Part shown: positions 8,542-11,573 of the stretch, one piece after another | Layout of the letters: the number at the start of each line of letters is the position of its first letter | How positions within the stretch are numbered: position 1 is the stretch's first letter | Source of the DNA: Alsobacter soli | GTDB taxonomy: Bacteria; Pseudomonadota; Alphaproteobacteria; Rhizobiales; Beijerinckiaceae | Assembly: GCF_003004785.1 (NCBI RefSeq) | Contig: NZ_PVZS01000009.1 | Location: 124,001 to 188,000, forward strand | Direction: 5' to 3' | DNA: 64,000 nucleotides | Position numbers and translations under genes: made by a program | The notes under the pieces: generated by a model | Database searches by the model: none | The model's input: only the letters and a program-made list of their open reading frames with translations | What the model was told of the DNA's origin: nothing

Positions 8542-8566
8542 GGAACTTGGCCAGAGTGCTGACGTT
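8542..8566 (+). promoter_or_regulatory. EcfG promoter for the 8598 gene
   Basis: GGAAC (8542-8546), 16 bases, CGTT (8563-8566), 31 bases before the start codon. Confidence 0.85.
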
Positions 8567-8597: not shown

Positions 8598-8876
8598 ATG
8601 AACGCGTCGCGCATTCTCCCCACCGTCGCCTTCTCGGTCGCCGTTTCCTTCTTTTTTATTCCCCCGGTGGTCGCGGTGGTGAAGAGGGCGCCGGAGGCCA
8701 AGCCGTCCGCAACGCCGGCGAGCCTGGTGGTGAAGCGCGAAACGATCGCAGCAGCGCCCAAGGCTCGAACGATTTCCGGAACCTGCGCTCCCGCCGACGC
8801 GGCCGCCTCGTCAAGCGCCGATGGGAAGCGTTCTCCCTGGAATCCCTGGGTCGTCGCCTCACTGACCGCAGAATAG
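8598..8876 (+). CDS. Small secreted or membrane-anchored hypothetical protein, EcfG-regulated
   Basis: Not recognised. The 92-residue product starts with a signal-like or anchor segment (ILPTVAFSVAVSFFFIPP, about residues 5-22), followed by a low-complexity Ala/Ser/Pro/Lys-rich tail with a single cysteine. The ATG at 8598 has an ACGGAGAG ribosome binding site; a longer in-frame start at 8514 would lie upstream of the promoter. The exact EcfG promoter supports it as a real stress gene despite the low complexity. Confidence 0.6.
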   Translation: MNASRILPTVAFSVAVSFFFIPPVVAVVKRAPEAKPSATPASLVVKRETIAAAPKARTISGTCAPADAAASSSADGKRSPWNPWVVASLTAE

Positions 8877-8897: not shown

Positions 8898-8923
8898 GGA
8901 ACCCCAGAGGCGCGCCCGTCGTT
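8898..8923 (+). promoter_or_regulatory. EcfG promoter with no gene directly downstream
   Basis: GGAAC (8898-8902), 17 bases, CGTT (8920-8923). No open reading frame follows; the next start codon is at 9156, behind its own EcfG promoter. It probably drives the small RNA candidate at 8930-9025. Confidence 0.75.
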
Positions 8924-8929
8924 AGGCTA

Positions 8930-9025
8930 GCAAGGCACGGTTCGGGCCAGAACGCCCCCTCCCGCCCGATCGAACCGAGCCAAACGGGATCCGCAGCTGA
9001 CCAGGCTGCGGATCCCGTTCTGCTT
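8930..9025 (+). ncRNA. Candidate general-stress small RNA
   Basis: The segment between an exact EcfG promoter and the next EcfG promoter has no coding frame but clear RNA structure. A 7-bp stem (8938-8944 with 8971-8977) encloses a 26-nt loop containing the C-rich run CGCCCCCTCCCGCCC (8953-8967), complementary to Shine-Dalgarno sequences. A perfect 15-bp hairpin follows (8983-8997 with 9005-9019, 7-nt loop). The expected start is near 8930, giving about 95 nt. The 3' side lacks a proper U-tract (CTGCTTGG follows), so termination is less certain. The plan resembles GsrN of Caulobacter, a sigma-T-dependent sRNA with a C-rich loop; homology is not claimed. Confidence 0.45.
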
Positions 9026-9048
9026 GGGGGGCCGGCAGGCGGCCGCGA

Positions 9049-9074
9049 GGAACCATCCAAAGAACCTGAACGTT
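9049..9074 (+). promoter_or_regulatory. EcfG promoter for the DUF3309-DUF883 operon
   Basis: GGAAC (9049-9053), 17 bases, CGTT (9071-9074), about 80 bases before the start at 9156. Confidence 0.85.
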
Positions 9075-9155: not shown

Positions 9156-9314
9156 ATGGGCCTCAGCACCATTCTGCTGATCATCCTCATCCTCTTGCTG
9201 ATCGGCGCCGTGCCGACGTGGCCGTATAGTCGCGGCTGGGGCTATGGCCCGTCCGGCATTCTCGGCGTCGTGGTGCTGATCATCATCGTCCTGCTGCTGA
9301 CAGGCAGGATGTGA
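9156..9314 (+). CDS. DUF3309 small membrane protein
   Basis: A 52-residue protein with two hydrophobic helices (about residues 4-18 and 34-50) joined by the conserved loop PTWPYSRGWGYGPSG, diagnostic of DUF3309. The function is unknown; the family is widespread and small in proteobacteria. AGGAG lies 9-13 bases before the ATG. It is the first gene of a two-gene stress operon with the DUF883 protein, 22 bases downstream. Confidence 0.9.
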   Translation: MGLSTILLIILILLLIGAVPTWPYSRGWGYGPSGILGVVVLIIIVLLLTGRM

Positions 9315-9336: not shown

Positions 9337-9693
9337 GTGACTGATTTCGACAGCGTTTCTGGCGGGGGCAGCGGTCCGGAGGACGTCCGTGACGATCTCA
9401 ACAAGCTTCGCGCCGACCTCGGCAAGCTGAGCGAGGCGGTGGCCCAGTTGGTGCGAGAGCAGGCGGCGGAGCAGGCCGGCCGCGTCCGTGAGGCGGTCGA
9501 CACCGCTCGCGGGCAGGTGACCGACGCCGCAGGCAGTTTCGCGCGGGCCGGAAGCGGCCTTGCGGAAGACGCCCAGGCTCGCCTGCAGACGCTCGGGACC
9601 GAGCTGGAGGATTCCGTGCGGCGTAGTCCCATGACGGCGCTGCTCGTCGCGGGAATAACGGGCATGATCCTGGGTATGATGACGAGCCGCTAA
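9337..9693 (+). CDS. DUF883 (ElaB/YqjD-like) membrane-anchored protein
   Basis: A 118-residue protein starting with GTG at 9337, behind AGGGAGA. A long amphipathic helix (about residues 15-95) ends in a single C-terminal membrane segment (about 97-113, with MTALLVAGITGMILGMM). This matches DUF883; the E. coli relatives ElaB, YqjD and YgaM are stationary-phase proteins of the inner membrane, and YqjD binds ribosomes. A similar role here is inference. It is co-transcribed with the DUF3309 gene under EcfG control. Confidence 0.85.
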   Translation: MTDFDSVSGGGSGPEDVRDDLNKLRADLGKLSEAVAQLVREQAAEQAGRVREAVDTARGQVTDAAGSFARAGSGLAEDAQARLQTLGTELEDSVRRSPMTALLVAGITGMILGMMTSR

Positions 9694-9813: not shown

Positions 9814-10626
9814 TCAGGCGGACGCGGCGAGCTTGTCCGGGCGCTGGGCGCGGCGCTGGAAGAACAGCGCCTGGCTGATCACCGCCTTCACCGTATCGGT
9901 GAGGAACGGCTTGGTGATCAGGAAGGCGGGCTCCGGCCGGGTGCCCGTGAGGAAGCGCTCTGGATAGGCCGTAATGAAGATCACCGGGACCTCAATGGCG
10001 CCGAGGATCTCGTTGACGGCTTCGAGGCCCGAGGATCCATCCGCGAGCTGGATGTCCGCGAGGATCAGGCCAGGCCGCAGCTTCTGGATGGAGGCGACCG
10101 CCTCCTTGTGAGTGCGCGCCACGTCGACCACCCGGTGACCGAGGTCCTCTACCAGACTCTGGAGATCGAGGGCGATCAGCGGCTCGTCCTCGATGATGAG
10201 CACGTCGGTCTTGATCTGCTCGGCAAGCTCCTTGCCGGCCGCGTCGAGCAGCGCCTGGGCCTCACCGAGCGAACAATCGAGCGTCTGAGCGACCTCGGCG
10301 GTGCTGAAGCCCTCGAGGGAGCGCAACAGGAAGGCGATGCGGGAGCGCGGCGTCATCGCGTCGAGACTGCGCTGGGCGCCCAATTCGACGGGAGGCAGCC
10401 CGGGATCCACTTGGGCGTTGATCGGCACCGAGCGCCAGACCTCAAGCAGCAGGCGATAAAGGGCAATGCGCACATCGCCGTTCAGGTCGATGCGCGAAGG
10501 ATCAGATACAATCGATTCAAGAGTGGCCTGAACATAAACGTCGCCAATGCGTTGATTGCCGGTCAGCGCACGGGCGAAGCGGCGCAGGAACGGCAAATGC
10601 GGTGAGATGGCCTGAGAAATCGGCAT
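9814..10626 (-). CDS. phyR: PhyR, response regulator and anti-anti-sigma factor of the general stress response
   Basis: PhyR (270 residues) joins a sigma-factor-like domain (about 1-130, ECF sigma2/sigma4 fold) to a C-terminal receiver domain (about 140-258). Acidic residues Glu146 and Asp147, the phosphoacceptor Asp191, Thr219 in FITAYPERF and Lys239 are all present, with the family FATGUY-type signature around 218. When phosphorylated, PhyR binds NepR and frees EcfG. The start at 10626 matches the family length. It is divergent from nepR-ecfG, and both transcripts have exact EcfG promoters, so the circuit is autoregulated. Confidence 0.97.
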   Translation of the reverse strand: MPISQAISPHLPFLRRFARALTGNQRIGDVYVQATLESIVSDPSRIDLNGDVRIALYRLLLEVWRSVPINAQVDPGLPPVELGAQRSLDAMTPRSRIAFLLRSLEGFSTAEVAQTLDCSLGEAQALLDAAGKELAEQIKTDVLIIEDEPLIALDLQSLVEDLGHRVVDVARTHKEAVASIQKLRPGLILADIQLADGSSGLEAVNEILGAIEVPVIFITAYPERFLTGTRPEPAFLITKPFLTDTVKAVISQALFFQRRAQRPDKLAASA

Positions 10627-10671
10627 AACGCCCCCAATCGGTGACCGTGCGTGAGCGCGGCATTGGGCCAC

Positions 10672-10696
10672 AACGTACGGCTGAAAAAAAGGTTCC
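10672..10696 (-). promoter_or_regulatory. EcfG promoter for phyR
   Basis: Minus-strand GGAAC (10696-10692), 16 bases, CGTT (10675-10672). It mirrors the nepR-ecfG promoter with only nine bases between the two -35 elements. Confidence 0.9.
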
Positions 10697-10705
10697 CGCC
10701 AGACG

Positions 10706-10730
10706 GGAACCGGGAACGTAGCTGCGCGTT
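10706..10730 (+). promoter_or_regulatory. EcfG promoter for nepR-ecfG
   Basis: GGAAC (10706-10710), 16 bases, CGTT (10727-10730). A second GGAAC at 10713-10717 is too close to the CGTT to work with it. Confidence 0.9.
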
Positions 10731-10788: not shown

Positions 10789-11004
10789 ATGACGCAGAAG
10801 AAGAGCGCCCGGCGCCCGGATCCAGCCAAGGCGGGTCCGGGTGGAGTCGGTCGTGAAGCGACCCCTGGTCTCGTTCCCCAGATCCAGGACCACATCGGGC
10901 GCCAGTTGAGAGCCGTTTACGAAGACGTCCTCAATCAGCCAGTACCAGACCGCTTCAAGGAGCTCATGGACAAACTCGACGAGAAGCTCGGAGAGACGGA
11001 ATGA
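10789..11004 (+). CDS. nepR: NepR anti-sigma factor
   Basis: This 71-residue protein is the anti-sigma factor that holds EcfG inactive until phosphorylated PhyR takes it away. The conserved core (about residues 31-66) contains IGRQLRAVYEDVLNQPVPDRF and a following amphipathic helix, while the N-terminal 28 residues are basic and disordered, as usual. Its end overlaps the ecfG start by four bases (ATGA), indicating translational coupling. It is transcribed from the EcfG promoter at 10706-10730. Confidence 0.95.
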   Translation: MTQKKSARRPDPAKAGPGGVGREATPGLVPQIQDHIGRQLRAVYEDVLNQPVPDRFKELMDKLDEKLGETE

Positions 11005-11573
11005 ACCCGCAGGGCAGCGCCAGCCTCAAGGCCGAACTGCTCGGCGCCATCCCGAGCCTGCGCGCCTTTGCGATGTCGCTCTCCGGAAATATCGACCGCG
11101 CCGACGACCTCGTGCAGGAAACCCTTGTGAAGGCCTGGAGCAATCTGGGGTCCTTCACCGAAGGCACGAACATGTCCGCCTGGCTGTTCACGATCCTTCG
11201 CAACATCTTCTACTCGGAATACCGCAAGCGCCGCCGCGAAGTGGCCGACCCCGAAGGGCAGATCGCGGCGCGGCTGGCCTCAGCTCCGTCGCAGAATTCG
11301 CACATGGATTTCCTGGACTTCCAGGACGCCCTGCAGCAGCTGTCGCCGGACCAGCGCGAGGCTCTGATCCTCGTGGGCGCCTCCGGGATGTCCTACGAGG
11401 AAGCCGCAGACATCTGCGGCTGCGCGGTCGGCACCATGAAGAGCCGCGTGAACCGGGCTCGCAATCGCCTGGGGCAGCTGCTCGCCATGGCGTCAGAAGA
11501 CGGCGCGGATGGCGACACGGCCTGGAATCCGGCCGAACCCGCCATGGACAAGCTTCTGCGCGCCGGGGAATAA
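11001..11573 (+). CDS. ecfG: EcfG, ECF sigma factor of the general stress response
   Basis: A 190-residue ECF15-type sigma factor that directs RNA polymerase to GGAAC-N16/17-CGTT promoters. Sigma region 2 (about 12-80) includes DDLVQETLVKAW and SAWLFTILRNIFYSEYRK; region 4 (about 108-165) has the SYEEAA helix-turn-helix start and GTMKSRVNRAR. It overlaps nepR by ATGA. The gene follows its own target-type promoter, so it is autoregulated, and a terminator lies 24 bases after its stop codon. Eleven other matching promoters in the window define its likely local regulon. Confidence 0.97.
   Translation: MNPQGSASLKAELLGAIPSLRAFAMSLSGNIDRADDLVQETLVKAWSNLGSFTEGTNMSAWLFTILRNIFYSEYRKRRREVADPEGQIAARLASAPSQNSHMDFLDFQDALQQLSPDQREALILVGASGMSYEEAADICGCAVGTMKSRVNRARNRLGQLLAMASEDGADGDTAWNPAEPAMDKLLRAGE

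Follow-up and report, generated by a model that had tools for sequence, protein, structure and literature searches.

A segment of the general-stress-response (GSR) locus of Alsobacter (Beijerinckiaceae; genome of 5.19 Mb) very probably specifies a regulatory RNA of ~95 bases that is made under the general stress sigma factor and exposes a cytosine-rich loop. Judging from its sequence, we regard the segment as a trans-acting sRNA gene of the general stress response, of the GsrN type, whose C-rich loop would pair with mRNAs, and we hold this reading with high confidence. Since GsrN, predicted GsrN-like RNAs and ReC64 are already known, the RNA represents a further case of a known type. It lies in a 64,000-nucleotide stretch of DNA, the whole of which we call the window, where it is convergent to phyR at a distance of 0.9 kb and adjoins nepR-ecfG, with the DUF3309 and DUF883-like genes sitting between it and phyR. 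The features are as follows:

8898-8923, plus strand: EcfG-type promoter of the sRNA in the sequence, GGAAC-N17-CGTT (GGAAC 8898-8902, CGTT 8920-8923)
8929-9024, plus strand: putative small RNA, ends approximate (start placed from the -10 element, end from the hairpin)
8938-8977, plus strand: 5' stem-loop of 7 bp, arms CGGTTCG (8938-8944) and CGAACCG (8971-8977), the pairs covarying in relatives
8951-8963, plus strand: exposed C-rich loop segment AACGCCCCCUCCC, predicted unpaired, the proposed seed; contains CCCCUC
8983-9019, plus strand: perfect 15-bp 3' hairpin, AACGGGATCCGCAGC (8983-8997) pairing with 9005-9019 around the loop 8998-9004
9049-9074, plus strand: EcfG-type promoter belonging to the DUF3309 gene and distinct from that of the sRNA; both Alsobacter relatives retain it
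9156-9314, plus strand: gene for a DUF3309 small membrane protein (Pfam PF11752), a neighbor outside the sRNA
9337-9693, plus strand: DUF883-like gene, a neighbor named by resemblance, without a confident Pfam match
9814-10626, minus strand: phyR (NF006623 at 349 bits, PF22029, PF22233), convergent to the sRNA
10627-10635, minus strand: GGGGGCGUU, a candidate target immediately ahead of the phyR AUG and a perfect 9-bp complement of the loop sequence AACGCCCCC (8951-8959)
10792-11004, plus strand: nepR (PF18557)
11001-11573, plus strand: ecfG (Sigma70 regions 2 and 4, NCBIfam NF009199 above cut-off, adjacency to nepR and phyR)

Two further EcfG-type promoter matches on the plus strand, at 8542-8566 ahead of a small protein gene (8598-8876) and at 10706-10730 ahead of nepR-ecfG, give much of the GSR locus the look of being EcfG-driven.

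What sets the sRNA promoter apart from a fortuitous match? The original prediction described an exact EcfG promoter with no gene behind it, and both statements stand: the motif is present, and no ATG, GTG or TTG start codon occurs within 8924-9023, which rules out a small protein encoded by the RNA. The motif alone is at chance level, with 211 occurrences of GGAAC-N15-19-CGTT in the whole 5.19-Mb genome versus 254 in the reversed control, and genome-wide counts were therefore dropped as evidence for the promoter. The above-chance signal is its conserved position across relatives; conservation carries the case. The nearest genomes to the host are those of A. metallidurans and an uncultured Alsobacter metagenome-assembled genome (MAG), to which the 5' domain (8936-8978) is 98% and 74% identical, respectively; over the 24 bases that precede the promoter, identity is 42% in both.

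The 7-bp stem of the original prediction encloses the C-rich 15-mer CGCCCCCTCCCGCCC (8953-8967) as proposed, but the exposure of the whole 15-mer did not hold up: UCGGGC pairs with GCCCGA in the minimum-energy fold, so that the exposed part is mainly GAACGCCCCCUCCC. The mean unpaired probability of CCCCCUCCC in the predicted fold is 0.79, and an alternative inner pairing joins 8942-8947 with 8964-8969. Some relatives have a longer 5' stem, and taken by itself the 5' domain exceeds shuffles in stability only modestly (z = -1.2). The folding energy of 8928-9030 is -56.9 kcal/mol versus a shuffled value of -38.7 (z = -5.3), a gap to which the 3' hairpin contributes most; its 15 perfect pairs were correctly described from the start. 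This hairpin is terminator-like, but only a weak T-tract (CTGCTT) follows it in the window, which leaves the 3' end of the sRNA uncertain. A good T-run is lacking in the window and in A. metallidurans; relatives have a full one.

The original prediction would have been refuted had relatives lacked the structure, but it is conserved: Alsobacter and other Beijerinckiaceae keep the 5' stem, the C-rich loop, the hairpin downstream of it and the EcfG promoter, nearly always beside phyR. The covariation search that it proposed shows compensatory changes among relatives in both helices, including most pairs of the 3' hairpin. When ten members are aligned with MAFFT, both sides are changed in 14 of 25 pairs, and the covariation amounts to 25 cells versus 10.9 in shuffles, a value that none of 500 shuffles reached; slid controls on the same alignment gave 4-9 pairs. 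A model-fitted alignment of 13 members, of a kind that is biased towards structure, has 18 of 24 pairs covarying. The stems came out misaligned in a further MAFFT alignment (A2), made from divergent members, and it was left out of the pair counts. The loop motif CCCCUC is invariant in all 18 family members.

A covariance model, R1, was built without the promoter and matches the window at 8929-9018 with 81.5 bits. Searched against 248 genomes of the GTDB family, R1 matches the host genome exactly twice, each match adjoining a different one of the two phyR loci. The second copy, overlooked by the original prediction, lies outside the window (C89:117445-117531, equal to L103:7446-7532, minus strand) and adjoins a second phyR-nepR-ecfG locus ~18 kb away, whose phyR is 59% identical to the first. 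Its loop core reads GAACGCCCCCTC, and it ends in a strong terminator. A. metallidurans and the Alsobacter MAG likewise have two phyR genes, each accompanied by one copy, and genome G003 has one copy confirmed beside phyR plus a weaker second match. R1 also matched seven genomes outside its training set (L147, L150-L154 and L160), every one of which has phyR nearby and an EcfG promoter at the right distance. Other matches with E above ~8e-4 are mostly plain terminators, and outside the family nothing fell below E = 7e-4 in 297 genomes of the order; R1 is thus specific, and its reach is limited to the family. Because it finds only chance terminators farther out, we make no claim of common descent across the order. 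A BLASTN search of the segment against plasmids gave no match, and among the families of Rfam 15 there were chance matches only.

Is the arrangement of EcfG promoter and C-run a property of phyR loci more widely? Across 80 phyR loci, a C-run follows the EcfG promoter in 18 of 53 cases where the promoter is convergent to phyR and within 2.5 kb of its 3' end, versus 1/155 elsewhere near phyR, 1/120 farther off and 0/89 in reversed sequence. The comparison of 18/53 with 2/275 elsewhere gives a Fisher p of 5e-14, and a replication on 40 further loci, mostly from other families, gives 4/19 versus 1/131 (p = 9e-4), both values being optimistic because the loci are phylogenetically non-independent. 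Most phyR loci had no promoter plus C-run element under these strict criteria, and in many genomes it may be absent or divergent. Members from Xanthobacteraceae and Hyphomicrobiaceae have the layout in common and differ in sequence. Two genomes of another genus of the host's family (L241 and L243) carry a candidate of like layout, with an EcfG promoter, a stem with a C-rich loop and a terminator, ~240 bp past the phyR 3' end in convergent orientation. In a record titled Alphaproteobacteria bacterium (L080:2451, minus strand), an EcfG promoter lies 2.8 kb upstream of phyR, and behind it a long stem that looks perfect encloses a C-rich loop.

How else might these observations be explained? A random promoter-like match ahead of a stable GC-rich hairpin, with no gene at all, might be proposed given that promoter matches are common and the genome is GC-rich; the conservation footprint, the covariation, the positional test and the finding of further copies beside phyR in new genomes by a model that lacks the promoter make this extremely improbable. 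We also think it quite unlikely that the segment, instead of giving a free sRNA, forms a long 5' leader to DUF3309-DUF883 in which the hairpin would serve as attenuator or leaky terminator. The segment does lie on the same strand ~130 bp upstream of DUF3309, and some read-through is likely given the weak T-tract, but between the hairpin and DUF3309 lies a conserved EcfG promoter that belongs to this gene. In relatives, moreover, the RNA carries a full terminator and stands ahead of other genes, and the footprint covers the RNA and falls in the DUF3309 leader (62% and 44%).

A real RNA could instead act mainly as a sponge or protein-binding RNA through its C-run, for example by titrating another RNA, a ribosomal protein or an RNA-binding protein. 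A low-complexity C-run could bind many partners, and no one target is conspicuous, yet the loop core is conserved as sequence and not merely as composition, and GsrN, whose loop is of like type, works through base pairing to the katG leader (PMC5869019); we deem this role unlikely. A GsrN-type sRNA that pairs with mRNAs is the reading that we retain. From the features above we infer its transcription, its EcfG dependence and the pairing of its loop with mRNAs. Under stress, PhyR would remove NepR, allowing RNA polymerase bearing EcfG to start at the 8898-8923 promoter and make a noncoding RNA of ~95 nt that would end at the 15-bp hairpin. The 5' stem would present the AACGCCCCCUCCC loop single-stranded, and this loop would pair with G-rich sites located in the leaders and ribosome-binding regions of mRNAs and so alter their translation or stability, as shown for GsrN in Caulobacter.

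The original prediction named GsrN of Caulobacter as its one parallel of this type and regulation. The comparison is apt; GsrN is not alone, as both the GsrN-like RNAs and ReC64 had been overlooked (PMC5869019; PMC3892343). GsrN of Caulobacter crescentus is EcfG (SigT)-dependent, is cleaved to a 5' isoform, is stabilized by Hfq and activates katG through base pairing of its C-rich 5' loop with the leader (Tien et al. 2018, PMC5869019). It shares with the window RNA an EcfG/SigT-type promoter, a length of ~100 nt (predicted for the window RNA), a 5' stem-loop with a C-rich loop and a 3' hairpin, which in GsrN is a terminator. The sequence comparison covers the loop, which in GsrN reads GACGCCCCCCGAC as deduced from published target sites (PMC5869019), ACGCCCCC being common to both. 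According to that paper, homologs of GsrN are usually beside the GSR locus, as is the window RNA, whereas C. crescentus GsrN lies away from it. A search for Caulobacter GsrN by its deduced loop gave one chance match, without promoter or phyR. The GsrN-like RNAs of Rhizobiaceae, Rhodopseudomonas palustris and Bradyrhizobium diazoefficiens were predicted by promoter and position (PMC5869019, Fig. 9), by like criteria, an EcfG site and proximity to the GSR locus; these predictions do not extend to Beijerinckiaceae, and neither a covariance model nor a covariation test is reported in the available text. In Rhizobium etli, the noncoding RNA ReC64 (88 nt) is encoded downstream of the phyR locus behind an EcfG promoter; Jans et al. 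(2013, PMC3892343) showed that it requires EcfG1 and determined its start by RACE. Compared by position and promoter only, it resembles the window RNA in having an EcfG promoter in the phyR/ecfG region; in R. etli, unlike here, a histidine kinase gene stands between the phyR locus and the RNA.

Cuckoo (CUCCUCCC-loop) RNAs have unpaired CU-rich motifs complementary to ribosome-binding sites, and AbcR and cuckoo RNAs are controlled by LysR-type or RpoH-type regulators, not by EcfG. The cuckoo motif CUCCUCCC is absent from the window loop, which reads CGCCCCCUCCCGCCC. Such unpaired CU-rich motifs complementary to ribosome-binding sites are described for AbcR-type alphaproteobacterial sRNAs (PMC7143759).

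Through covariation and a structural model that is made explicit, these results support the proposal of an sRNA arm built into the alphaproteobacterial GSR and encoded beside phyR. They extend it to Beijerinckiaceae, beyond the coverage of PMC5869019, PMC3892343 and Rfam 15, and R1 provides a searchable model where Rfam has none. In Alsobacter, one copy accompanies each of the two GSR loci.

Which mRNAs might the loop pair with? GsrN pairs with the katG leader; for the window RNA, sequence comparison revealed no katG-type target. The host genome contains katG, and its start region pairs with the loop no better than random sequence from the window does (fraction 0.52); katG was dropped as a target, its start region having no special complementarity to the loop. 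With modest confidence, we name the phyR mRNA of the same locus as the best candidate by sequence, and it offers one directly testable target. The sequence GGGGGCGTTATG occurs only once in the genome, at the site before the phyR AUG, and a 9-bp match of this kind is found in 0.17% of 31-base stretches of the window, although the match is post hoc, as ~10 start regions had been inspected before it was noticed. Compared across members, a loop binds its own phyR better than the phyR of another member (p = 5e-5, and p = 0.0015 with one per clade, the discovery case included in both); without the Alsobacter locus-1 members, p is only ~0.03, and many members have no loop-phyR match. The complementarity suggests feedback and is a lead, not a finding. 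An EcfG-made RNA that pairs with the phyR start would exert negative feedback on the GSR; in some of the Hyphomicrobiales, loop and site would co-evolve, and each of the two Alsobacter GSR loci would have its own loop-target pair. We put this scheme forward tentatively and think it doubtful as it stands. The phyR leader (window 10624-10696, minus strand) starts from its own EcfG-type promoter at 10672-10696. In one possible fold of this leader, CAAUGCCG is paired close to the G-rich start region, and the fold is similar in A. metallidurans.
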